IMG/VR virus record: IMGVR_UViG_3300024431_000015
Span: 1-38,932 of that record
Direction: 5' to 3' (one strand)
Origin: a virus
DNA length: 38,932 bases
The notes beneath the pieces were generated by a model. The model had not been told where the DNA came from and did not search any database. It saw only the letters and a program-made list of their open reading frames with translations. The position numbers were made by a program, and so were the translations under genes. Numbering within the stretch: the first letter of the stretch is position 1; each line of letters begins with the position of its first letter. Below, in pieces: positions 4,191 to 25,498 of the stretch.

Positions 4191-5153
4191 ATGTCATTCA
4201 GTGATCTAAAGAAGCGTCAAGGACGCAAAAGCATCGAAGCACTAGCCACTGAGGCGGCGAAGATGAATAAGCCCGGAGGCTCGTTCGACGACGACCGTTT
4301 CTGGAGACCATCCCGCGACAAATCAGACAATGGCTTTGCGGTCATCAGGTTTCTTCCCGCAGTAGAAGGCGAAGATATTCCCTGGGTCCGTATCTTTTCA
4401 CATGGTTTCAAAGGACCGAAGGGTCAATGGTACATCGAGAATTGTCCCACTACTAATGCCGGCAAGTGTCCGGCTTGCGAACGCAATAGTGAGCTTTGGA
4501 ACAGTGGTATTGATGCCAATAAGGACATCGCTCGCAAGCGTAAGCGCCGACTCCAGTACATCTCAAACGTGTACATCGTCAGCGATCCGAAGAATCCTGA
4601 GAACGAAGGTAAGGTCTTCCTGTATAAGTACGGGACTAAGATTTTCACCAAGTTGATGGACGGTATGGATCCTGAATTCGAGGACGAGAAGGCTATCAAT
4701 CCCTTCTGCTTCTGGGAAGGTGCTGACTTCAAGATCAAGATTCGTAGAGTCAAGGGTTATGTCAACTATGACAAGTCTGAGTTTGCTGCACAGACTCAGT
4801 TCCTTGATGGTAACGATGAAGCTCTTGAAGCTCTGTACGCCGGGCAACACCCGCTGCAACCGTTCATCGCCGCCAGTGAATTCAAGGAGTATAAAGCTCT
4901 CCTCAGTCGTGTCGAATCGGTTCTTGAAAGAGGTGGCTCTCCAACACCATCGACGGCTGATGAAGTTGTAGGGGAAGAAGATGTTCAATCTTCGCCTCGA
5001 CTTGGCTCAAGTCCAAGTTCGAATCCCGTTACTAACGATGACGATGATTCTGATTCTGGTATGACTGAGGCTACGGTCACGGTCGGTACTGATGACGAGT
5101 CGGATGCGTCAAACGCTAAGAGCTACTTCGAGGGTCTTGCCGACGAAGAATAA
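4191..5153 (+). CDS. gp32: gp32-like single-stranded DNA-binding protein
   Basis: This 320-residue protein matches T4 gp32 (301 residues), which coats single-stranded DNA during replication, recombination and repair. The N-terminus is basic (KKRQGRKS), consistent with the cooperativity domain. The core shows FAVIRFLPA, then a zinc-binding set His71, Cys85, Cys93 and Cys96, close in spacing to T4 His64, Cys77, Cys87 and Cys90. NVYIVSDPKNPENEGKVFLY and the FWEGADFKIKI strand follow, as in the OB fold. The C-terminal about 70 residues are acidic and low in complexity, ending in FEGLADEE, which in T4 recruits gp59 and other replication proteins. gp59 is encoded upstream in the same direction. The gene ends at a bidirectional terminator. 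Confidence 0.95.
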   Translation: MSFSDLKKRQGRKSIEALATEAAKMNKPGGSFDDDRFWRPSRDKSDNGFAVIRFLPAVEGEDIPWVRIFSHGFKGPKGQWYIENCPTTNAGKCPACERNSELWNSGIDANKDIARKRKRRLQYISNVYIVSDPKNPENEGKVFLYKYGTKIFTKLMDGMDPEFEDEKAINPFCFWEGADFKIKIRRVKGYVNYDKSEFAAQTQFLDGNDEALEALYAGQHPLQPFIAASEFKEYKALLSRVESVLERGGSPTPSTADEVVGEEDVQSSPRLGSSPSSNPVTNDDDDSDSGMTEATVTVGTDDESDASNAKSYFEGLADEE

Positions 5154-5183
5154 TCCAAGCCCTTAGTTAGGACTGTTCTATCT

Positions 5184-5212
5184 AAAACGCCACTCAATTG
5201 AGTGGCGTTTTT
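5184..5212. terminator. Perfectly palindromic bidirectional terminator
   Basis: AAAACGCCACTC (5184-5195) and GAGTGGCGTTTT (5200-5211) are exact reverse complements around AATT, so the stem is GC-rich with A/T tails on both sides (five T rightward). It lies between the converging ends of gp32 (+) and the tape measure (-), so it can stop transcription from both directions. Confidence 0.9.
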
Positions 5213-5215
5213 CTT

Positions 5216-7273
5216 TTAAGGTGATGCACCGCGGAAGTTATTGAATGCTACTCGCTGAAGCATATTTTCGTTGTTGCGGTTTGCGGTTGTTAGGGGAATT
5301 ACAGCCGGAGTAGAATCTCCACCCTGCACAATAGTTGGGGCTGTCTGAGTTATGACCACAGGAGCCTTTGCTCGTTCACGCAATGTAGCGTTGTCGCCCA
5401 CTCGTCTTGCTAAGTCTGCACCAGTAGTAACTTCGGGTTGCAACATAAGATCGGTCAGAGTTTCGTTTTGTGCCTTTAGCAATTTTTGCTTTGCTTGTAA
5501 CTCTTGAAGTTTCTGACGAGCTTGGACGAGCTTTAGTTGCGTTTGCCGGGCTTGAGCCAGGACTGCCTGTCTCGCATTTTCATTAAGTAAAGAACTTATT
5601 TGGAGTTTTTCTGTTTCTTGTACATCTTTGAATGCTTTGATTGCTGTTTTAAGAGCCTCAATACTTGTTGATCTATTGATACTATCAAGAGTTTCTTTAA
5701 GGTCCTGCTGGAAGAGAGTTGCTTTAGCGCCGAGACCTACGTTGCGTACCTTTGAGAAGGCCTCGCCGAACGTGCCGAGTGTTCCTGGAATATTGAATCC
5801 TGCTTTGAAAGCAACAAGAAACGGCGCTGCAATTATACGAGAAATTCCACTGAAGGTTTTCGCTACCGATTCTGTGCTAAATTCTTCCGTGACTACTGAA
5901 AAGAGATCAATAAAAGGTTGTCTGATTTTTTCTCGAAGTTCGTTTTTATTGACTAATCCCAAGGTTAGAAAATCAGCGGCAGCCACAAGACCTTCGCCGG
6001 CACCTTCTCGAAGACTTCCAGTTTTTTTGGTTTCTTTGACCGTAGTGACAAGACCAATACCTGCTGCGACGAGTGGGGCCCCGGCCTTGCCAAGTATGCG
6101 ACCTCCTACTTTAGCACCAGGAGACTGTGCAAGTCGAGCAAATCTTCCTGTTTGTGCAACTTTAGTAGCGGCATCCGCGGCAATCTTTCTTGCAAGCGGG
6201 CCGCCAGCTCTAGTAGCGGCCGTCGTGGTAGTTTTCTTTCCTGCGATCAAGGCCGCGGTTTTCTTCAATCCAATCAGTCCTGCGGCGCCACTCGCACCTG
6301 CCAAAATGCTCCCACCAATCCCCTTGACCACGCCCGTAACAATACCACCACTGGCCGCAAGTAGGCCACCGATACCACCACCACGACGAAGGAATCCTAG
6401 AAGTTTAGATAAGCGGCCGCTCTCTTTGGTATCTCGCCGATCTCTAGCACGCTGGTCCCGTACTTTCTCTCGTTTATCTTCAACTTGTTTCAGTCTTAAT
6501 TTACTACCAGATGTACCCCGAAGCACACCAATCAGTTTATCAATACCCTTTGGGAGCAGTTTGATTAGGAAGAAAAGTAGTCTACCCAAAGGTTTGAAGA
6601 TAACATTACTAAAAGCACTTGCTGTGATCTTGATGAATTGCCGTGGGTCAATAAAGAATTTAAAGAAACCCTTGACCTTATCTTGCAATTCACCTATTCT
6701 TGTTTTGATAGCACCAAATCCGTCACCAAATTTCGAGAATTCAGCCTTCAATGCACCGGCACTTGTAAGTCTCCGTTTTTCAATTCCTTCAACTAGATTT
6801 GCTGTTGCCTCACTTCGACCAACAAGTTGGAGAGCTAGAGCCTGGCCCGCGTGCGTATTCTCTAAAAAGCTGCCGGCTAAGGTAGACAGAATTCGGGCGC
6901 TTCGACCCCTAAAACTCTTTTCATTTTTTTCGAATTTTTGCTGGGCTGCAACCCGGACAGCAGCCATCTTTTGTGTGTGGGCACTCAAGTTGAAGATTGC
7001 CGTTTGAACCTCAACATTCTTTTTGGAATTTTTGGCTATCTTAGCCACGGGTCCCTTCAATAATTCCTCTACCTTACCATCACTGGCTTTACTGAGGTCT
7101 TTCATCAGGTTCTTATTCTTCTTCAGCTCGGCCGTCAACGCCCCGACGGCCTTCTTATCAACCCGCTCTTTACGATCTTCGGCCGTCTCATCTAGTTGCT
7201 TCTTCTGCAACGCAAGGCGCTCTTCCTCGATCTTGATAAGCTCATTGATTGATTTATTTGTTTCGTCAGCCAT
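5216..7273 (-). CDS. gp29: Tail tape measure protein (gp29-like)
   Basis: This 685-residue protein has the build of a tape measure. The N-terminal half is long, charged and helical with many Lys and Glu. A central glycine/alanine-rich hydrophobic stretch (about residues 295-345) alternates with basic segments, and the C-terminal half holds a Gln-rich coiled-coil (about 560-610). It is the last gene of the leftward block and is preceded by gp26 and a -1 frame extension, the usual place for the tape measure in tailed phages. T4 gp29 has 590 residues; the somewhat greater length would predict a slightly longer tail if the length rule holds. Sequence similarity to gp29 itself is not obvious by eye, so the call rests on composition, size and position. 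A 459-codon antisense frame lies opposite it and is a shadow. Confidence 0.8.
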   Translation of the reverse strand: MADETNKSINELIKIEEERLALQKKQLDETAEDRKERVDKKAVGALTAELKKNKNLMKDLSKASDGKVEELLKGPVAKIAKNSKKNVEVQTAIFNLSAHTQKMAAVRVAAQQKFEKNEKSFRGRSARILSTLAGSFLENTHAGQALALQLVGRSEATANLVEGIEKRRLTSAGALKAEFSKFGDGFGAIKTRIGELQDKVKGFFKFFIDPRQFIKITASAFSNVIFKPLGRLLFFLIKLLPKGIDKLIGVLRGTSGSKLRLKQVEDKREKVRDQRARDRRDTKESGRLSKLLGFLRRGGGIGGLLAASGGIVTGVVKGIGGSILAGASGAAGLIGLKKTAALIAGKKTTTTAATRAGGPLARKIAADAATKVAQTGRFARLAQSPGAKVGGRILGKAGAPLVAAGIGLVTTVKETKKTGSLREGAGEGLVAAADFLTLGLVNKNELREKIRQPFIDLFSVVTEEFSTESVAKTFSGISRIIAAPFLVAFKAGFNIPGTLGTFGEAFSKVRNVGLGAKATLFQQDLKETLDSINRSTSIEALKTAIKAFKDVQETEKLQISSLLNENARQAVLAQARQTQLKLVQARQKLQELQAKQKLLKAQNETLTDLMLQPEVTTGADLARRVGDNATLRERAKAPVVITQTAPTIVQGGDSTPAVIPLTTANRNNENMLQRVAFNNFRGASP

Positions 7274-15659: not shown

Positions 15660-16796
15660 ATGGCGATTATTCAGTTTCCAGTTGATGAGTTTGCGGCAGA
15701 GAAGCCACTACAGAAGATTGATCTAACCGAAGCCGAACGGGGCGTGGTCGATCTAGTATTTGGTGACAATGCACTTCAGAATCCAGTACGTTTAGTGATC
15801 GACAAAGCAATTGCAAGTATTGATCGTGAAGTTGTCTTGCTTGGTCCACTTAGTGGTGTACTAGGTGTTCAAGTGATTCCAACTCGGTTTACTTTATTCG
15901 GCCCTCCGGGACCCGGTGGTATTTCTGATACCCAAATCTCCTCGCTAATTTCATCTTTGAACAATCTACGAACAGAGATCACGCAATATAGAACACACTC
16001 AGATCGAGTAAGTGGTTTTACTCTACCTGTTGGAACTAACCCACCGTCGTTTCCAGGATTGCTTGGCGTTGCAGTTGGATTCAATTTTATCAAGAATAGT
16101 CTTGAGCCAGAAGGATCGCCCGAACAAGATTTCTTTTCACCGATCTTTGAGACTCTACTTGGCTCTGCTGAGTTATTAGTCAACCAAGCATTCACCGCAA
16201 CGTTTCGTACTTTTGAACGACTTACTGGAAGATCAAATGACGATACTACGCTCATCCTTAGCGGGGTAGCAGGGGACTTTCGCCCACGCGAAACTGTTGA
16301 TAATTTGACTACGGCTACAACTGCTCTGGTAACTTCATGGCAACCAACAACGAATACGTTAACAATTACTCAAACGGATGCTGGTGACTTCAATACGACC
16401 GACAGCATACAAGGTCAGATAACAGGAGCAACTGCCACAGTAGCTACTGTAACCCTGCCAGTGTTTAATAGAAGTGATCCTTCTGCTACACCAAAATCTA
16501 ACTATACCTCTATTATATCAGCGGTAAACGCTCTTATCGGACCCCTGAATTCCCTACCTAATATAGACGACAGCAATTACTTCGATGCTCTGGATTTCAT
16601 TACGAAGTTTGGTATGGCACAGACGATTTCGAGTCTAGCAAAAGAAGATTTATATGCTCGTTTCTTATTCAATACTGTCAATGGTACTGAAGAATTAAAT
16701 CAGGAGATCACGGATCTCCTGGACGAAGAGGATGAAGTTTCATTCGAATCTAGTATTCCTTTAATTGGACCTGAAGGTGAGTTGATACCGCAATGA
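15660..16796 (+). CDS. Structural protein of unknown function with beta-module insert
   Basis: The 378-residue protein is not recognised. The first 120 residues contain a Pro/Gly-rich FTLFGPPGPGGISD loop and the helix SDTQISSLISSLNNLRTEITQYRT. A middle portion (about residues 215-265) reads ALVTSWQPTTNTLTITQTDAGDFNTTDSIQGQITGATATV, a copy of the beta module found in neighbouring genes. The C-terminus is acidic (DLLDEEDEVSFESS). Position between the PAAR tip and gp25 points to a baseplate or spike-associated role. The next gene overlaps by four bases (ATGA). Confidence 0.72.
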   Translation: MAIIQFPVDEFAAEKPLQKIDLTEAERGVVDLVFGDNALQNPVRLVIDKAIASIDREVVLLGPLSGVLGVQVIPTRFTLFGPPGPGGISDTQISSLISSLNNLRTEITQYRTHSDRVSGFTLPVGTNPPSFPGLLGVAVGFNFIKNSLEPEGSPEQDFFSPIFETLLGSAELLVNQAFTATFRTFERLTGRSNDDTTLILSGVAGDFRPRETVDNLTTATTALVTSWQPTTNTLTITQTDAGDFNTTDSIQGQITGATATVATVTLPVFNRSDPSATPKSNYTSIISAVNALIGPLNSLPNIDDSNYFDALDFITKFGMAQTISSLAKEDLYARFLFNTVNGTEELNQEITDLLDEEDEVSFESSIPLIGPEGELIPQ

Positions 16797-17479
16797 TTAC
16801 AACCGCACTAATATTAGCTGCTATCTCGTCGAACGCTTGGTTGAATATCGGCATGACCGTCGGAACGGTCTTGGGAGGAATATCAATAGGCTTCCTTATC
16901 AAGAAACTCAAGACATGGGTTGCTAAAAGAAAAGATATCGAAACCCGGGAAGAACAATTAGGGGAAGACTCTACAACGTTACTGACAAACGGAAAAAATC
17001 ACCAAGAAATCAATGAAGTCTTGAATGAGCTTCGCAACGTACTCAGCGCCGAGCGGGCCCAGATTGGTCAATTCCATAATGGTGGGGATTACTTAGACGG
17101 CAGCCCCGTCAAACGATTCTCAGTCTCCTACGAATCTTTCAGATCAGGTTCGCAGCCGATGGCTCCGCAGATGCAGGGAGTCCTGTTGTCTCTATTCTGG
17201 GACGTTGTTCCAGTGTTGCGTGACAACAAAGCTATCGGTCGCCTTGTCGCAGAGCAGCCAGAAGGTTACTTCCGATCGCTATTCGAAAACAGTACGGTCT
17301 ATGCCTTCGCAGCCTTACCACTACGAAAGTGGCACGCCAAGAGCAAGAAATCCCAGATCATCGGTTATGTGCTGGTCGAATGGGGAACCCAGGAAGACTA
17401 CGAAGCTCAAACTGAGACACATATTCGATCTCAGCTACGCAGCACACGCACAGTTGTTGAGTCACAATTGACTCACTAA
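16793..17479 (+). CDS. Membrane-anchored protein with a possible GAF-like domain
   Basis: The 228-residue protein has one hydrophobic segment at about residues 17-37 (LNIGMTVGTVLGGISIGFLI) followed by Lys-rich residues, so the N-terminus is probably outside and the rest cytoplasmic. After a charged helix (KRKDIETREEQLGED) comes ERAQIGQFHNGGDYLDG and VKRFSVSYESF, a block of the FHNG type that I associate with GAF-like domains, then WDVVPVLRDNKAIG and a final helix. No enzyme motif is seen. Such a protein is out of place among baseplate genes. The coding sequence looks more G+C rich than the flanking structural genes. A 7-base inverted repeat lies over its last codons (17458-17475). Confidence 0.62.
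   Translation: MITTALILAAISSNAWLNIGMTVGTVLGGISIGFLIKKLKTWVAKRKDIETREEQLGEDSTTLLTNGKNHQEINEVLNELRNVLSAERAQIGQFHNGGDYLDGSPVKRFSVSYESFRSGSQPMAPQMQGVLLSLFWDVVPVLRDNKAIGRLVAEQPEGYFRSLFENSTVYAFAALPLRKWHAKSKKSQIIGYVLVEWGTQEDYEAQTETHIRSQLRSTRTVVESQLTH
17458..17475. repeat. Perfect 7-base inverted repeat at end of the membrane-protein gene
   Basis: TGAGTCA (17458-17464) and TGACTCA (17469-17475) flank CAAT, overlapping the last codons. There is no T-run after it, so it is not a good terminator. It could be a weak transcript-end hairpin, an operator, or chance. Confidence 0.4.
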
Positions 17480-17534
17480 AGAATAGAATAAGCCATATAC
17501 ATAATGGGTATGGAGTTACCTTGAGGGGACTGAC

Positions 17535-18728
17535 GTGGCTATCAACAATCCGAATGACATCAATGACTTGTTAGGACTATTCGAGTCTGATACGGGTATT
17601 ACGACGCAGAATAACGCCGGTGGAGGTGGAACTCCATCAGACGTGAATCTGTGGGTCAACCAAAAGGTGTTGTTCCCGCCACAAAATTTAATTCAGTCCA
17701 CAGGCACTACTATGCCAGCGTTTCGGGCTACCGCGACACCGAATTTGTCACCTGCGGTTAGTTTCGACGGGGTGGACGACTTGCTCAAGACGCTCACCGG
17801 TAACTTCTTTTTCCTGGCGTCTCACACCGTAGCGATGGTGGTGAAGTTCCCCCCTGCTCTACCTCTGGCCCCCGTAACTCTTGCTCATGTGACCGGGTTC
17901 GTTTTCGGTGGTGAAGTCCTGCGTATCATGCCAAGTGGTGATCTGCAAATACAGAACGAACTGGGGACTGAAGTCCCAGTCACCGTTGCGGTGAACAGTG
18001 GTTGGCAGTTAGACACCTGGGCAGTGGTGTTGTGGACTGTCGATGCGACGGCAACACCTTTCTTCGATCTGCGTATCGACCAGATTCCCTTGGACTCCGG
18101 GTTTTCATCATTGATTTCCCCCCCGAATGGTCTATCGGTGGCCTCATTAGAGGATGGAACTGAATCAGCAGATATAGAAGTAGCTTCGGTCATAGTATAC
18201 AAACGTAAGTTGACCGGTATTGAGATCGTTGATCTAGAGAATTTTCTAATTGATAAATATTTTATAGTCGTTCCGCCTCCACCTCCACCTCCAGTTCCAG
18301 TTCTACCAACCTTACCACTACGTTCAGGTATAGGATTTAAAACAAAGACACCACGTTTTACTGATCTTGATTTGGATTTTGTCGCTAATCCTATTACAGG
18401 TGAGCTATCACGCAAGTTGGATGACGAGGCGGTTAAACGTGCTTTGAGAAATTTGATTCAATTGAATCGTTATGAGAAACCATTTCATCCTGAAATAGAT
18501 CCTGGGATAACCGGTTTACTATTCGAACTTATTAATCCGGCTACAGCCGTTCTTTTACAAAGACGTATTGTTGAAATTGTGAATCATTATGAATCAAGAG
18601 TTGATTTGTTGGCGGTCAATGTAGAGGACCGGCATGAAGAAAATCTTTACAACGTCAGTATTGAATTTCGTATCGTCAATGAAGATAATAATATTGTAGT
18701 CAACTTTTCACTTACGAGATTAAGATAA
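17535..18728 (+). CDS. gp25: gp25-like baseplate wedge with N-terminal LamG-type lectin domain
   Basis: This 397-residue protein is a fusion. Residues about 35-243 form a concanavalin/LamG-type domain: SFDGVDD at 76-82, an AMVVKF strand, a WQLDTWAVVLWTVD strand pair, and the closing VIVYKRKLTGIEIVDLENFLIDKYFIV. Seven prolines follow (residues 247-253, bases 18273-18293). Residues about 270-397 are gp25 (T4: 132 residues): FTDLDLDFVANPITGEL, DDEAVKRALRNLIQLNRYEKPFHPEIDPGI, NHYESRVDL and VEDRHEENLYNVSIEFRI. gp25 is the conserved core wedge subunit shared with type VI secretion TssE. The start is GTG with GAGGGG at 17523-17528. No ATG, GTG or convincing TTG precedes the gp25 part, so it is probably made as one chain. 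The lectin part looks more G+C rich than the gp25 part. Confidence 0.9.
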   Translation: MAINNPNDINDLLGLFESDTGITTQNNAGGGGTPSDVNLWVNQKVLFPPQNLIQSTGTTMPAFRATATPNLSPAVSFDGVDDLLKTLTGNFFFLASHTVAMVVKFPPALPLAPVTLAHVTGFVFGGEVLRIMPSGDLQIQNELGTEVPVTVAVNSGWQLDTWAVVLWTVDATATPFFDLRIDQIPLDSGFSSLISPPNGLSVASLEDGTESADIEVASVIVYKRKLTGIEIVDLENFLIDKYFIVVPPPPPPPVPVLPTLPLRSGIGFKTKTPRFTDLDLDFVANPITGELSRKLDDEAVKRALRNLIQLNRYEKPFHPEIDPGITGLLFELINPATAVLLQRRIVEIVNHYESRVDLLAVNVEDRHEENLYNVSIEFRIVNEDNNIVVNFSLTRLR

Positions 18729-20566
18729 TGGCAAATGGAAACCAAAAGAATATTCCTATAACTGATCTTGACTTTGATGCGATCAAAGCAAACCTAACTG
18801 AATTCCTTAAGGACCAAGATCAGTTCAAAGACCTAAACTTCGAAGGTGCTGGAATCAACATTATGTTGGATCTTCTGGCAGCGAACACACACTATCATTC
18901 GTTCTACATCAACATGGTTGCAAACGAAATGTTTATTGATAGTGCTGTAACTAGAGATGCTATCGTTTCATTGGCTAAACATCTAGGATATACGCCACGC
19001 TCAGTAATTTCTGCAACCGCTCGCGTAAAAGTAGTATCAGCTACAGATCCGTTCCCGAGTCAGACAAATAAGTTTCTGTCACCAGATACAATCTTTCAAA
19101 CTACTATCAATGGAACAACTTTCAATTTTATCAATCTTGCTCCTGCTGAGTTTATAGAAGATACTGTAACAGGTGAATTTATCATTGGAGAAGTTTTCAT
19201 TCGAGAAGGATCCCATCTTGATTCTGCTTTTGTCGTTGATATTTTAAATCCAGATCAGAAATTTATTATTTCTGATCCTGCAATTGATACAACAACTCTG
19301 ATTGTTCGTATTCAAAATTCCATTACAGATGTAACAGGCGCCGATGAACCTTGGCAATTGGTCCAAGATTTGATTGAAGTAGATAGTGATGATGCTGCGT
19401 ATCAACTACAAGAAGTTGAAGGTGGTTTTTACGAGTTGATCTTTGGAGATGGTATTGTTGGTCGAGCATTAGAAAATGGTAATGTAATCGTTGTGGACTG
19501 GTTATCTGGAAATGCTATTGCACCAAACGGTGCTGGTATTAATGATTCATCACAGGCTCGCGCCTTTACAGTTGCAGGTAATTTCGATGTTATTGTATTG
19601 GACGCTGCCGCCGGTGGTGCTGTTCGTGAGCCGATTGAATCTATCAGATTCTTTGCCCCCTTGAATTTTCAAGCACAGGAGCGAGCAGTTACATCCGACG
19701 ACTATGCTACTATTGTAGCCCGTGACTTCCCTGATATCGAGTCGATCTTTGTATTCGGTGGTGAAGATATTGACCCTCCTCAATTTGGTAAGGTCTTTAT
19801 CTCTCTGAAACCTGTGGTAGGCGTGACAATCAGCGATGCTGAGAAGTTGACCATTGCTAATACCATTTTGAAACGACGTAACGTAGTGAGTATCACTCCA
19901 ATCGTAATTGATCCGGACTTCACTTTCTTGTTAGTTGAAACTGAAGTAAAATATAATCCACGCGCCACACGTCTATCGCCTTCAAGTATGGAACAATTAG
20001 TGAATCAGATTATTCGAGATTTTGGCGACAATGAGTTAGAGAAGTTTGATCGAGCTTTTCGTTATTCAAATCTTGTTTGTATAATTGACGATGGCGAATC
20101 ATCTATATTGAATAACGCTACTACAATTAAGATGCAAAAACGATTTGAACCATCTCTTGGCAGACAGGTTACATATATTCTCAAATACAATAATCCAATC
20201 TTTCACCCCGAAGATGGATTTCAACCTGTCTTATCAAGTACGTCTTTCGGTTTCTTCGATCCCGAAGTCGGCCAGATCGTTGATGCATTCTTAGATGATA
20301 ATGGAGATGGACTCGTTCAGGTATTCAAGCTAGTTGATCTCGAAAGAAGAATCATCAACGAATGCCAGGGTACGATCAATTATGAAACTGGTCAGGTAGA
20401 GTTAATCAACTTTCAACCAGAAACATTACCAGGAACTATCTCTATCTCGGTGACGGTTCAGCCTGCTGATCTAGATATCAACGTGCAATTCAATCAAATC
20501 CTATCTATTGACCCCGATGATGCTGCTGCGGTAAGCATTACTATCACACCGGACGAGGGACTATAA
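18728..20566 (+). CDS. gp6: gp6-like baseplate wedge protein
   Basis: The 612-residue protein matches T4 gp6 (660 residues), the wedge subunit that forms the inner ring and clamps gp7. N-terminal DFDAIKANLTEFLKDQDQFKDLNFEGAGINIMLDLLAANTHYHSFYINMVANEMFIDSAVTRDAIVSLAKHLGYTPRS is nearly diagnostic. The middle has FGDGIVGRAL and the C-terminal domain DIESIFVFGGEDIDPPQFGKVFISLKP. It starts at TAATG overlapping gp25, and the two products interact in the wedge core. Confidence 0.95.
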   Translation: MANGNQKNIPITDLDFDAIKANLTEFLKDQDQFKDLNFEGAGINIMLDLLAANTHYHSFYINMVANEMFIDSAVTRDAIVSLAKHLGYTPRSVISATARVKVVSATDPFPSQTNKFLSPDTIFQTTINGTTFNFINLAPAEFIEDTVTGEFIIGEVFIREGSHLDSAFVVDILNPDQKFIISDPAIDTTTLIVRIQNSITDVTGADEPWQLVQDLIEVDSDDAAYQLQEVEGGFYELIFGDGIVGRALENGNVIVVDWLSGNAIAPNGAGINDSSQARAFTVAGNFDVIVLDAAAGGAVREPIESIRFFAPLNFQAQERAVTSDDYATIVARDFPDIESIFVFGGEDIDPPQFGKVFISLKPVVGVTISDAEKLTIANTILKRRNVVSITPIVIDPDFTFLLVETEVKYNPRATRLSPSSMEQLVNQIIRDFGDNELEKFDRAFRYSNLVCIIDDGESSILNNATTIKMQKRFEPSLGRQVTYILKYNNPIFHPEDGFQPVLSSTSFGFFDPEVGQIVDAFLDDNGDGLVQVFKLVDLERRIINECQGTINYETGQVELINFQPETLPGTISISVTVQPADLDINVQFNQILSIDPDDAAAVSITITPDEGL

Positions 20567-20567
20567 A

Positions 20568-22991
20568 TTGCCACATAAGCGTTTCGTAACCCGTGATACT
20601 TTATCTTCTCAGGTGCCAGAGCAGTTACCTGAGTTTGTACGCTTTGACCACCCAACATTTGTTGCGTTTTTAGAAGCATACTACGAGTGGATGGAAACAC
20701 AAGACCAAGCACTAAATATTTCGTTTGGTCTGCGTGATCTTGCAGATATTGATGATACACTGGAAGAGTTTGTTGAACAATTCAAACAGACATATATGCT
20801 CAACTTTCCTATAGAACTAGCAATTGATAGTGAGACTGAACAACCGCTTGACCAACGACGAATTCTTAAGAACATCAAAGCATTTTATAAGGCAAAGGGT
20901 TCTGAAAAATCTTACAAATTCTTATTCCGTATTTTATTCGACACCAACGTAGAGTTCTTCTTTCCAAAGGTTGATATCTTGCGTGCATCGGATGGTAAAT
21001 TTATCATCGAACGGTTTATGCGTGTAACTACAGCAAACGGTTCTGAAACTTTTGAAGCAGTTGGTAGGAAAATTCAACAGAGAGATGGACTTACGGGTAG
21101 TATTACCGCATCAGCAAAAGTGACCAGAGCAATTCAATTTCAAGCTGGTCTATACGAAGTAACAGAGTTTGTCTTAACGGAAATCTTTGGCGTATTCAAT
21201 CCTCCGCAGCGTGTGGAATTTGAGATCGTACTTGACGATGGTACAACAAAAAAGATCGAAGAAAATATCTTTACTATGATTACAGGATTTAATGTAACCA
21301 ATGGTGGAACAGGTTTTTTTGAAGGTGAAATTGTGCGGCTCATCAATGCTCCAGGAGATGTGGGCATCGGTGCTTTGGGTGTCGTTGATCGTGTAGATGG
21401 TACGACGGGTGCGATATTGCGTATCTCTGTGCGTGACCCAGGAACAAACTATCTCATACCTCCAATTCCCGATTTTAGCGAATCAGCGAATGGAACAGGA
21501 GCAACGACTGATGTTCTGCTGGGCCCGATTTTTACCGCTGATGGTTTCTTTGGAAACAATGATGGCCAACTTAGTTCGAACAAGGTTATTCAAGATAGTT
21601 TCTTCTATCAAGATTACTCTTACGTTCTCAAGACTGAAGTAACAATCGACAAATGGTTAGGTACAATCAAGAAAGTAATTCACCCTGCTGGTTTGAAAGT
21701 GTTCGGTGAAGTAACAATCTTTCGATGCATCGAAACTGAAGCTCCTCATGAAACTCGCTTCCAGGTATTTGAGATACCTCTTATTGGACATTACACACCA
21801 TATACCTGGCTCACTACTGAGGATCTACGGGCTGCGACCGTTGCAAATCTGGATTTATACCCGAATGGTTTTGATCCTGCGGCCGGCACTGTTGCTGAAG
21901 ATGGCACCGGTGGTGTGCATGTGCCGGGAGGTAATCCAGAATTTGCTGGTGAATTCACTGACTTCTCTGATCTGAAGGCAAGAACGACTCTGGCTTTTGG
22001 TTCAGGAAGTGGACCGGTTTGGTTCACAATGTCAACTGTCACGGGAGGACCATTTCAGATTGGAGAAGTAGTTGAAGGATTTACGACCAAGGCCAATGGA
22101 ATTGTATACGCACTAGACCCAACAGGAACGAAGATCGGTTTGCTCATCCTTGATGGTGAATTTGCTGTGGGCGAAACGATTGATGGAGATACATCAGGGG
22201 CCTCAACCAGTTTGACTTCTCTTGTGAGTACAACACCAGTTGTCAAGTGGGGATTTCCATATCGACCGAAATCAGATCCTATCTTTATCATATACCACCA
22301 CCCGAATCGTCGTGGTATGATTGAGATTCCCGGGCCCAATGAACCGCACCCCAATCCGAATATGCGAATTATAGATCGCACAATGCTTAGTGGAGTATTT
22401 GTTGATGGTGAAAGTGTGATTGGCGATCTAACGCGAATCACCGATATTACTCCCTATATTTCGGGTCAAGACTTTATTTTAGGCGAACTTGTAATGGGAC
22501 TGACATCAGGCGCTACAGGTGTTGTATTTGAATGGAATCCTGTTGCGGTTGCTAGTTTGGGTAGTGAGTTGGTCTTAGGACAAATTACCGGTATGTTTTT
22601 GGATGGTGAAGATGTCCAAGGAAATACTTCGGCCGTAAAAATTACGATTGACGAAATCACTCAAGATTTGCGAGAGGGTATTATCGACGCTGACGAGCTA
22701 CCAAATGCAGGGGAAAGTCAGGTCATTATGTTCAGCAGCGGCGAGTTCTCGCCTGGCGAGAATATAACTGGTCAGACATCAGGTGCGGTGGCGAGAGTCG
22801 ATTCGCTTAGCAACTTGATCTATCTTAATGGAATGCCCTGGAGAGATATTAATATTCGTGACTTCGTTCAAAACATGCCTGCGGGTCTGGAAATCCTATG
22901 TCTGCCGCGGGGCGCCCAGGAGATCCTTAGCGATGCAGGATTCCCAAATGAAGATATAGGTGGGTTTGACGGCACTGGTCCAACGGACTAA
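20568..22991 (+). CDS. gp7: gp7-like baseplate wedge protein with repeated beta modules
   Basis: The 807-residue protein corresponds to gp7 of the cyanophage-like T4 group (T4 gp7: 1032). The N-terminal FVRFDHPTFVAFLEAYYEWMETQDQAL, LKNIKAFYKAKGSEKSYKFLFRILF and the middle DSFFYQDYSYVLKTEV with KVIHPAGLKVFGEV (about residues 343-381) are the main landmarks. Residues about 494-746 contain six related units with a GE-x-V-x-G-x-TSGA core, for example DFILGELVMGLTSGATGVV. The start is TTG at 20568: GAGGGA (20555-20560) stands seven bases away, no ATG is near, and the reading frame begins two bases after the gp6 stop. gp7 links the wedge to gp8 and gp10 in T4. Confidence 0.86.
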   Translation: MPHKRFVTRDTLSSQVPEQLPEFVRFDHPTFVAFLEAYYEWMETQDQALNISFGLRDLADIDDTLEEFVEQFKQTYMLNFPIELAIDSETEQPLDQRRILKNIKAFYKAKGSEKSYKFLFRILFDTNVEFFFPKVDILRASDGKFIIERFMRVTTANGSETFEAVGRKIQQRDGLTGSITASAKVTRAIQFQAGLYEVTEFVLTEIFGVFNPPQRVEFEIVLDDGTTKKIEENIFTMITGFNVTNGGTGFFEGEIVRLINAPGDVGIGALGVVDRVDGTTGAILRISVRDPGTNYLIPPIPDFSESANGTGATTDVLLGPIFTADGFFGNNDGQLSSNKVIQDSFFYQDYSYVLKTEVTIDKWLGTIKKVIHPAGLKVFGEVTIFRCIETEAPHETRFQVFEIPLIGHYTPYTWLTTEDLRAATVANLDLYPNGFDPAAGTVAEDGTGGVHVPGGNPEFAGEFTDFSDLKARTTLAFGSGSGPVWFTMSTVTGGPFQIGEVVEGFTTKANGIVYALDPTGTKIGLLILDGEFAVGETIDGDTSGASTSLTSLVSTTPVVKWGFPYRPKSDPIFIIYHHPNRRGMIEIPGPNEPHPNPNMRIIDRTMLSGVFVDGESVIGDLTRITDITPYISGQDFILGELVMGLTSGATGVVFEWNPVAVASLGSELVLGQITGMFLDGEDVQGNTSAVKITIDEITQDLREGIIDADELPNAGESQVIMFSSGEFSPGENITGQTSGAVARVDSLSNLIYLNGMPWRDINIRDFVQNMPAGLEILCLPRGAQEILSDAGFPNEDIGGFDGTGPTD
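22047..22806 (+). repeat. Six tandem copies of a GE-x-V-x-G-x-TSGA beta module in gp7
   Basis: The coding sequence for gp7 residues 494-746 repeats a unit of about 20-25 residues: FQIGEVVEGFTT, FAVGETIDGDTSGAST, FVDGESVIGD, FILGELVMGLTSGATG, FLDGEDVQGNTSAVK and FSPGENITGQTSGAVA. The copies are similar as protein but differ as DNA, so they are old rather than recent duplications. Confidence 0.72.
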
Positions 22992-23017: not shown

Positions 23018-25498
23018 ATGGCTCGATGCGAACCATTTAGATGTAATTTCAGACGCTACTTGGCTGAACGGTTTAAGGAGTTGTTCGATCTTGATTCGAA
23101 CGATCACTTCTATCTGTTTCTGTCGCGTGTAACTCCCTGGGAACGTGAGCCAACCGCTCCGGGTGCTGACGATAGCAATCCTCCGTTCAATATCGACTCG
23201 GTAAAGTCCGATATCGAAGCATGGCAGCAAGCATTTGGATTCAAACGAATTGGATTCAATGATGTTTTCCTGGTAGTGCCTCGAATTAATTGGGAACCGG
23301 GTCGTACCTTTGACCAATATAACGACGATGTAGACCTGTTTGATCCTGAAGATCCAAAGAAGTTCTATGTTCTAGTTGATGGCCGAGATGTCTACAAATG
23401 CCTTGGTAATAACTTCGGTGGACTCTCTACTGAGAAACCAACCGGAACATCGACCGAAGCATTTGTACGACCCAATGACCAATATCGTTGGAAATTCTTA
23501 TACCGCGTCCCGGAGGATCTTCGTGACTTCTTGACCGAAGATTTCATGCCAGTTGAATTTATCTCAGGCGAAGGACTACTTCCTGATGAGCGACAGCTAC
23601 AATTCAATGTGCAGCAAGCTGCGGTTGCCGGAGCAATCGACTTTATTGATCTTATCAGCTCAGGAAGTATTAATCCGTCAGCATATCCATTCAGTATTCC
23701 AGCCAACGCTGTTCACTTCGTTCAACGAAGCGAGAAGGCTAGTGAAGATAGTGGTTCAATTGCTAGTTTCCCAGTTCTCGGTGATGTTGAGCTAGATAAC
23801 GGTAGTGCCAGTGTGGTGAACGGTGCATATAATAATATGGTACTTCGAATCGTTGGTGGTGCAGGTGTTGGTGAGGAACGAATTATCGTCAGTTATGACG
23901 GGCCCAATCAAACAGCTACACTCAACGCACCTTTCTCCGCCAACGTACTTGTTGCTGACTCATATGAAGTCAAGAGTCGAGAGATGAAGGGCGCAAATAT
24001 TCTTAGTCAGGTAAACGATGTATTCAATGGTTATGTTATTACTATCCTTTCGGGCCCTGGAATTGGTCAGCAGCGTGAAGTTGTTGGTTATGATGGTGTG
24101 ACACAAATCTTTACCTTAGATACCGCATGGGATGCTGATTTGAAAGCTGATGCGAACCCTGCTCTCTCTAGCTTCTATACGATAACACCCAAGGTTACGA
24201 TTGTAGGTGATGGTCAAGGAGCAACGGCCACCTCTATCGTCAATTCTGAAAGTGTTATCACGCAGATTAATGTCGTCAATCGGGGTAGTGGTTACACTCG
24301 CGCCGAAGTTGAAATCTCACCTTTGTTTCCTGTAGGAGCTCCTGACGCTGCTGAGGCTTCGGCTGAGATTTCACCACCAGGCGGCCATGGTGCAAATGCG
24401 GTAAAAGAACTTTGTGCCCGGCGAGCCTTGATAGTAGTTCGTACCGATCAAGATGAATTAGGAGTCTTTGCTGTCGCAAATGATTTCCGAGAATTTGGTA
24501 TTGTTCGTAATCCAATTTTGAATGATGGCACAGAACGTGTTGCAGGTGAAGAAATTAAAGCTCGGTTAAGAATCGAAGTTACAAAGAATGTTTCGCCTCT
24601 ACTAGTAGGATCGTTTGATGCAGGTGGAACACAATTTTTACTTGGTAATGAGAGCGGTGCTGTGGGTAGAATCATCGAATGGACTCCAGATGGTACAGGT
24701 AATGCCGGTGTACTGGTGATCGAAGATCCTTCATCGCAAGATTTTGTTTTACCTGAAGGCGTGAGCCTCGGCGAATTACTACATCAGTTTGATGGTTCTC
24801 CAGCGTTTACCGCGACAGATGTTGCGACAGTAGTATTCGTTGAACAGCTTCCGCGAAATACTCCCGAAACATATCGGCAGTCATGCCAGATTACCCTTCA
24901 ATCAGATGGAACCGTAGCGAACCAACTAGATGACGATTCTTTCTCTCTAGACACATTCGCACGTGGACAAAGCTCGCTTCGATTGACCGATGCTTCCAAT
25001 TATGTTTCAGGTGAAGATTTTCTTGTTGGTGAAATAGTTGCGGGGCAATCTTCGGGTACGAGTGCTACGGTTGTTTCTTGGACTCCTGCTGCTGTGGGAG
25101 CCCCTGGATCAGTGCTGGCTCTCAGTAGTGTGGGAGGTACTTTTCTGGATGGTGAAGTTGTCCTTGGTCTGACATCTGGTGTCGAAGTTATTATTGACAT
25201 CGGTGGCCAGGAAAATGCCTCAGTACAAGGTATCGTTGTACAGTGGGAACCGGCTGTTGACGGGTTAACCGGTGTTCTGAGCTTAGTTGATGTTCGAGGA
25301 GATTTTGAGATCGGTGAGCAAATTGATGAATTCGATCCGGATACTGACACGACAGTAACAAATATTGGGAAAGTTACTGCAAAGACTGACCCGGAACTGG
25401 TTCATAATTCTGGGGAACTCTTATACATACAGAATGTAAAGCCCATTCAACGCGACGGTGAACAAGCTGAGGAATTCAAGATCCTCGTTGAATTCTAA
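23018..25498 (+). CDS. gp8: gp8-like baseplate wedge protein with extra repeats
   Basis: The 826-residue protein begins as gp8 (T4: 334 residues): HFYLFLSRVTPW, WQQAFGFKRI, FYVLVDGRDVYKCLGNNFGG, YRWKFLYRVPEDLRDFLTEDFMPVE (residues 156-180). Beyond about residue 255 it carries additions absent from T4: a duplicated unit (about 262-318 and 333-390) with GxGxGEERIIVSYDG and GPGIGQQREVVGYDG; a GDGQGATATSIVNSE..GSGYTRAEV unit (397-432); and three or four beta modules (530-775) like those in gp7. gp8 bridges gp7 and gp10 in the wedge periphery. AAGG lies just before the ATG and a CTAAATA element 30 bases before. Confidence 0.86.
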   Translation: MARCEPFRCNFRRYLAERFKELFDLDSNDHFYLFLSRVTPWEREPTAPGADDSNPPFNIDSVKSDIEAWQQAFGFKRIGFNDVFLVVPRINWEPGRTFDQYNDDVDLFDPEDPKKFYVLVDGRDVYKCLGNNFGGLSTEKPTGTSTEAFVRPNDQYRWKFLYRVPEDLRDFLTEDFMPVEFISGEGLLPDERQLQFNVQQAAVAGAIDFIDLISSGSINPSAYPFSIPANAVHFVQRSEKASEDSGSIASFPVLGDVELDNGSASVVNGAYNNMVLRIVGGAGVGEERIIVSYDGPNQTATLNAPFSANVLVADSYEVKSREMKGANILSQVNDVFNGYVITILSGPGIGQQREVVGYDGVTQIFTLDTAWDADLKADANPALSSFYTITPKVTIVGDGQGATATSIVNSESVITQINVVNRGSGYTRAEVEISPLFPVGAPDAAEASAEISPPGGHGANAVKELCARRALIVVRTDQDELGVFAVANDFREFGIVRNPILNDGTERVAGEEIKARLRIEVTKNVSPLLVGSFDAGGTQFLLGNESGAVGRIIEWTPDGTGNAGVLVIEDPSSQDFVLPEGVSLGELLHQFDGSPAFTATDVATVVFVEQLPRNTPETYRQSCQITLQSDGTVANQLDDDSFSLDTFARGQSSLRLTDASNYVSGEDFLVGEIVAGQSSGTSATVVSWTPAAVGAPGSVLALSSVGGTFLDGEVVLGLTSGVEVIIDIGGQENASVQGIVVQWEPAVDGLTGVLSLVDVRGDFEIGEQIDEFDPDTDTTVTNIGKVTAKTDPELVHNSGELLYIQNVKPIQRDGEQAEEFKILVEF
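23801..24187 (+). repeat. Tandem duplicated domain within gp8
   Basis: Residues 262-318 and 333-390 of gp8 align: a short Asn/Gly strand, then GxGxGxxRxxxxYDG, then a TLN/TLD strand with an Ala/Asp-rich end. Two copies in tandem, diverged at DNA level. Confidence 0.62.

Follow-up and report, generated by a model that had tools for sequence, protein, structure and literature searches.

Contractile phage tails, type VI secretion, and extracellular injection systems have few parts in common; the gp25/TssE protein is one of these, and it is usually regarded as a fixed core part. The locus described here raises the question of whether gp25 can bear a large lectin-like domain on its own chain and, if so, what that domain might do in a baseplate. 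The window, i.e. the whole stretch of DNA that was analysed, comprises the 38,932 bases of one IMG/VR virus record. The first-pass annotation had described within it a single chain consisting of a LamG-like domain, seven prolines, and gp25, read from a GTG start, and this description was borne out by one reading frame of 397 codons. The features of the locus, each with the evidence on which it was placed, are the following:

16793..17479, plus strand: upstream gene of unknown function, 228 aa, with a hydrophobic N-terminus; exchanged between lineages
17523..17528, plus strand: ribosome-binding site GAGGGG, 6 nt 5′ of the GTG; read from the sequence
17535..18728, plus strand: fused gene, 397 aa, GTG start and TAA stop; single reading frame read from the sequence, and relatives
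17535..18272, plus strand: predicted N-terminal ConA/LamG-like domain, residues 1-246; alignment with Demequina Laminin_G_3, and fold matches
17901..18158, plus strand: residues 123-208, the hypervariable part of the lectin-like domain, in which most indels lie; amino acid identity, dN, and nucleotide identity profile
18273..18320, plus strand: proline-rich linker, residues 247-262, seven prolines (247-253) first; sequence, and alignment with relatives
18321..18725, plus strand: complete gp25 (sheath-initiator) domain, residues 263-397 (start approximate); PF04965, PHROG 261, and T4 gp25 by sequence and fold
18728..20566, plus strand: gp6-like wedge protein, the next gene; PHROG 219 (E 1.4e-152) and PF21379

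A tblastn-confirmed search recovered the whole fusion intact in three other IMG/VR contigs (L001, L003, and L082, all with sample number 3300020235) and its start, cut by the contig end, in three more (L002, L083, and L106; sample numbers 3300024431, 3300009030, and 3300020234). Over the aligned parts, all relatives except the short L106 were 71-80% identical to the window fusion, and at this level of sequence identity the fusion-bearing contigs are distinct genomes. DNA-pattern matches in L115 and L120 proved to be chance matches and were not counted as relatives. The GTG start and the ribosome site were common to the fused relatives, and the prolines of the linker read PPPPPPPP in L001 and PPPPPLPP in L003 and L082. 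Because it recurs in independent contigs, the fusion is genuine, arising neither by chance nor from an assembly join. Among 50,697 annotated phage records, none covered 80% of the length of the fusion, and tblastn with the N-terminal domain alone gave nothing better than E 8 in annotated phage records. A search for gp25 with an N-terminal LamG in other phages, as proposed in the first-pass annotation, therefore succeeded among IMG/VR contigs (whole in L001, L003, and L082) but not among the annotated records. The viruses bearing the fusion belong to one family of uncultured, T4-like viruses.

Regarding a separate start for gp25, a sequence scan of the window fusion showed that the interval between residue 227 and residue 279 is free of in-frame ATG, GTG, and TTG codons. 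Neither the window nor L001 has a start codon at the boundary of gp25, and no conserved, plausible internal gp25 start was found across the fused relatives. The first in-frame start after residue 279, TTG 280, has no ribosome site before it, and its use would trim conserved gp25. The earlier statement that there is no internal start was thus essentially right, and a separate gp25 start, which had been put forward as a possible refutation, was looked for and failed.

By HMM, sequence, fold, and position before gp6, the C-terminal part of the fusion is gp25. Pfam PF04965 matched residues 297-383 with 27.5 bits, just above its curated cut-off of 27.2 (which was also exceeded in the genome search), and PHROG 261 matched residues 270-395 (E 1.8e-33). 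In a sequence search of the PDB, the C-terminal part matched T4 gp25 (5iw9/5iv5; E about 2e-11). When the predicted model of the gp25 half was compared with known structures over about 100 residues, Z was 12.6 for T4 gp25 5iw9 (rmsd 2.7, 99 residues) and 10.9 for TssE 6gj1, and the predicted C-terminal strands (356-366, 371-380, and 386-394) would be of the handshake type. The fused gene lies directly 5′ of gp6 in a gp53-gp5-PAAR-gp25-gp6-gp8 baseplate cluster; T4 gp25, TssE, and XM1 gp15 have the same domain, C-terminal three-strand region, and place before gp6. A genome search of the window and of the relatives' records, all of them fragments, turned up no second, plain gp25. Because each record holding gp25 has exactly one (and each holding the lectin-like domain has one copy of it), the fusion is the only visible gp25.

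Two further observations concern the surrounding genes. Stretches matching PHROG 460 are common to three baseplate-cluster proteins of the window (15660-16796, 20568-22991, and 23018-25498), and two of the three stretches are SGATATV-like; on sequence, this suggests one small domain spread across several baseplate-cluster proteins. In addition, a 685-aa ORF on the minus strand (5216-7273) lies in a T4-like cluster, and a PHROG match was not found for it.

The nature of the N-terminal domain was less readily apparent from profiles. Residues 1-246 had no direct Pfam or PHROG profile match, and the Laminin_G (PF13385) profile gave no match up to E 10 among six family members. An alignment-based scan of bacterial genomes led to Demequina proteins and one Myxococcaceae protein. 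The Demequina region matched with an E of 1e-11 (among candidates) and belongs to a protein with three PF13385 stretches, the best of which the match overlaps. Identity between the domain and Demequina Laminin_G_3 was 26%, with SFDGVDD, conserved R and G landmarks, and a closing VYKR/VYDR strand in common; the Demequina domains differ in being accessory domains of a multidomain, enzyme-like protein with a glucose/sorbosone dehydrogenase domain. In the phage contig L124, a structural-cluster protein aligned with residues 2-104 at 33%, so that the lectin-like domain begins almost at residue 1. L124 encodes two LamG-like proteins close by in its phage structural cluster (L124:3656-4660 and 5014-5772), one of which is the best viral relative of the window domain outside gp25 fusions.

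The full-length AlphaFold model was poor over the N-terminal 94 residues, and residues 1-246 were refolded alone with bacterial LamG rows in the alignment (mean pLDDT 53, pTM 0.61). Foldseek returned ConA-like matches for this model (E around 1e-6, the best 3e-7), and ConA-like fold matches overall reached Z of 14-16.7 across 166-212 residues. The best VIA-align match was the tailspike of cyanopodophage Pan3 (9vyh; Z 16.7, 212 residues, rmsd 4.5), which has the same fold over the whole domain; the next was domain 4 of the arabinanase AbnA (Z about 16, 191 residues, rmsd 3.0), whose structure contains an arabino-oligosaccharide. In Pan3 the domain resides on a tailspike, and in L124 on a separate structural-cluster protein, rather than on gp25. 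Many viral models termed "Concanavalin A-like lectin/glucanase" matched the fold as well. In the full-length model, built from an alignment without the bacterial LamG rows, the N-terminal half gave weaker matches (Z 7-8) to pentraxins and neurexin, and the C-terminal half matched T4 gp25. A profile search of the PDB with the N-terminal domain gave one chance match only; a sequence match to the baseplate protein 5e7t (E 0.69) was not significant and was discarded. Taken together, the predicted ConA-like fold is well supported, at modest model confidence. Because a direct Laminin_G profile match was not obtained, the domain is classed here as a ConA-like fold related to LamG, not as Laminin_G_3 itself. 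Of the earlier label "concanavalin/LamG-like domain", the predicted fold and the Demequina homology therefore stood, whereas a direct profile assignment did not. "Lectin" is used in this report as the name of a fold, not of a tested activity, and a ConA-like fold alone is no proof of sugar binding.

Both halves of the fusion are, by comparison of the coding sequences, under purifying selection; for the lectin-like part this follows from dN/dS values of 0.08-0.25 (where dS could be estimated). Divergence within the lectin-like domain was uneven. Amino acid identity to the window was 45-77% in residues 123-208, compared with 70-89% in the flanks (1-122 and 209-246; 79-89% in residues 61-122 and 209-246), and dN was 0.16-0.51 compared with 0.07-0.22 in the flanking segments. 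Such conserved flanks on either side of a fast-evolving middle resemble a framework that bears a ligand-binding face. Given that synonymous divergence was also high in residues 123-208, exchange of old alleles may be an alternative to positive selection as the source of this divergence. In gp25 and gp6 the window was 92% identical to L001, but in the upstream 228-aa protein the two were 72% identical. For L003 the pattern was reversed, with 93% identity to the window in the upstream protein and 72% in gp25. The genes are therefore mosaic, partners having been exchanged within the lectin and linker or close to them. GC3 in the window fusion was 0.52 for the lectin-like part and 0.25 for the gp25 part. 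Because this contrast was weak in L082 (0.57 and 0.49, respectively), it is only a hint of a foreign origin for the lectin-like part. The upstream 228-aa gene (16793-17479) also has a GC3 of 0.52, compared with 0.28-0.39 in its neighbours, and a distant homologue (25%) in L101.

Sister contigs showed that the domain can be present or absent at the same site. In L096/L100 and L102/L107, a plain gp25 of 141 aa lies between the same two genes as the window fusion, and the gp6 of these contigs was 74-76% identical. Despite having no lectin, these sisters retain the TTGAGAGGACT ribosome site and the GTGGCTATCARCAAT start, and the pattern TTGAGRGGA...GTGGC (ribosome site and start) was common to them and to all fused relatives. 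In the plain sisters, GTGGCTATCARCAAT opens a mini-frame of 25 codons that at its end overlaps the gp25 ATG as ATGA; CCACCTCCGCC, part of a four-proline tract, is retained in the gp25 frame just before that ATG:

L096:4502-4579: 25-codon mini-frame from the lectin's GTG, in a plain-gp25 sister
L102:4502-4579: 25-codon mini-frame from the lectin's GTG, in a plain-gp25 sister

The two mini-frames differ at 4 codons, 3 of which replace a residue, too few for judging selection. Because the ribosome site, first codons, and short proline tract remain as a deletion would leave them, the plain sisters appear to descend from a fused ancestor that lost the lectin by deletion; alternatively, the lectin may have been inserted into such a site. 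Plain gp25 is also what the more distant L101 (gp6 46%) encodes, and most of the gp25s examined are plain; the lectin-like domain was therefore probably gained in this clade. Six annotated gp25 genes encoded 128-147 aa, and the known sheath initiators that were checked (117-150 aa) have no N-terminal lectin-like domain, unlike the fusion. The single frame, its conservation, the purifying selection, the variable segment, the presence or absence of the domain, and the mosaicism are all direct observations. They suggest an optional module, that is, a swappable accessory for host-surface contact.

Proteins of the gp25 type are located on the wedge core, where they hold the first ring of the sheath. 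We consider it slightly favoured (probability roughly 0.55) that the fusion is an accessory glycan adhesin carried on gp25 and displayed six-fold on the wedge ring; virion placement, copy number, glycan ligand, and attachment role are what we infer in this proposal. The C-terminal part would do the ordinary work of gp25, seated on the gp6/gp7 wedge core and starting the contractile sheath. The N-terminal ConA/LamG-like domain would be suspended from this part by a stiff, extended proline linker keeping the domain away from the core, with about six such domains round the wedge ring. There the domain would most likely bind a host-surface glycan, strengthening or holding attachment after fibre docking. 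It would have been gained in the ancestry of the clade, with at least one sister lineage apparently having lost it, and its middle third would be diverging like a ligand-binding surface under host-driven change.

Six copies can fairly be proposed by analogy, because the solved AlgoCIS baseplate contains six gp25-like chains (PMC8894135) and that of XM1 one gp25-like protein per wedge (PMC10457771). An N-terminal cargo would leave the sheath-binding side free, since the handshake strands of gp25 are C-terminal (PMC5924787) and the N-terminal residues 1-22 of XM1 gp15 are the part that does not fit after contraction (PMC10457771). In siphophage Dit, carbohydrate-binding insertions help adsorption to exopolysaccharide-bearing hosts (PMC10688798). 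Other points speak against the adhesin reading. The lectin-like model has low confidence, as its mean pLDDT indicates, and because gp25 is placed above the tip, between wedge and sheath, the domain may be unable to touch the cell until contraction. By analogy, a warning also comes from the Anabaena myophage A-1(L), whose neck-fibre carbohydrate-binding module did not bind the host (PMC10966104).

The domain could instead be structural cement, packing on wedge proteins or the first sheath ring and stabilising the baseplate with no sugar bound. This possibility, which we hold to be rather unlikely, would suit the location of gp25 at the crowded wedge/sheath interface and the extra baseplate-stabilising protein gp12 of XM1 (PMC10457771), the insertion domain in the A-1(L) wedge (PMC10966104), and the well conserved framework of the lectin-like domain; however, the sister phages do without this domain although their wedge set is the same, a proline tract of such length points to spacing more than to packing, and the middle third is far more variable than gp6, the supposed packing partner. 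It is improbable that glycan contact pulls gp25 directly and helps to fire the sheath, bypassing the fibre-to-wedge relay, given that the long proline hinge could decouple force and that the plain sisters must fire without the domain. Nonetheless, Alg9 in AlgoCIS (PMC8894135) and XM1 gp15 (PMC10457771) have each been proposed to relay the contraction signal, and the lectin-like domain is attached at the end matching the gp15 residues that no longer fit after contraction. Just as doubtful is the corollary that six gp25-borne lectins, tied covalently to the sheath initiator, would constitute a firing shortcut gained, lost, and swapped as a module.

Production of lectin and gp25 as two proteins in practice, through cleavage at the proline linker or re-initiation within gp25, is very improbable. 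Proline-rich linkers are often exposed, and TTG 295 of the window follows GGTGAG by 12 nt, but the gp25 boundary is free of start codons in the window and L001, a start at TTG 280 or TTG 295 would drop conserved gp25 residues, and TTG 295, a codon inside conserved gp25, is missing in L001. Finally, a sequencing or assembly error fusing two separate genes, anticipated by the first-pass annotation as a refutation, has a negligible probability, as the identical in-frame join occurs in other contigs at 71-80% identity and with low dN/dS.

As an accessory adhesin, the fusion would have its closest parallel in the evolved Dit of skunaviruses and other phages of lactic acid bacteria, in which a baseplate scaffold likewise carries an optional domain of carbohydrate-binding type (PMC10688798). 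Related phages have a classical Dit without the extra domain (PMC10688798), just as the fused L001, L003, and L082 stand beside the plain L096/L100 and L102/L107. Evolved Dit differs in its scaffold (Dit, not gp25), in phage type, and in carrying an internal insertion, and host binding was tested there. Extra domains are also grafted onto conserved contractile-tail baseplate parts in A-1(L); there, the added domains are on hub and wedge proteins, and the accessible part of the report mentions no lectin-like domain on the sheath initiator (PMC10966104). In the literature searched, mostly non-subscription, we found no described case of a gp25-lectin fusion, LamG in baseplates, or extra sheath-initiator domains; together with the 50,697 annotated phage records, this upholds the earlier remark that no such fusion was known. 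The parts (gp25, a ConA-like domain, and decorated baseplate proteins) are already known, and their combination on the sheath initiator appears to be undescribed.

Other gp25s with N-terminal extensions were also encountered. In L030:3155-4375, gp25 has an extension of about 280 aa that is rich in Ser, Gly, and Asp, and the vicinity of the gp25 boundary contains no start codon; the gp25s in L053:3249-3848 and L060:3237-3836 have extensions of about 75 aa. In L035:3200-4393, L050:3209-4402, and L015:322-1620, another kind of domain, about 270 aa long and carrying an Ig-like GSLPDGLSL...IEGT motif, lies upstream of gp25 in the same frame. An internal ATG is kept at the usual gp25 start in these three, so that both gp25 forms could be made. 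In the baseplate of the injection system PlPVC1, a chain of 212 residues (PDB 9qgl chain 9A) has its gp25-like part at 124-219, and PlPVC1 may thus also have an N-terminally extended gp25-like protein. Judged from these sequences, N-terminal cargo on gp25 may be a wider theme.

As a conserved natural fusion, the protein described here indicates that the N-terminus of gp25 can bear a cargo of about 250 residues while gp25 itself is under purifying selection. The fused and unfused sister phages provide a natural comparison for the role of the domain. The gp25 N-terminus would thereby be an attachment point in contractile machines, and the idea of the "decorated baseplate" would be extended from siphophage Dit to the sheath initiator.
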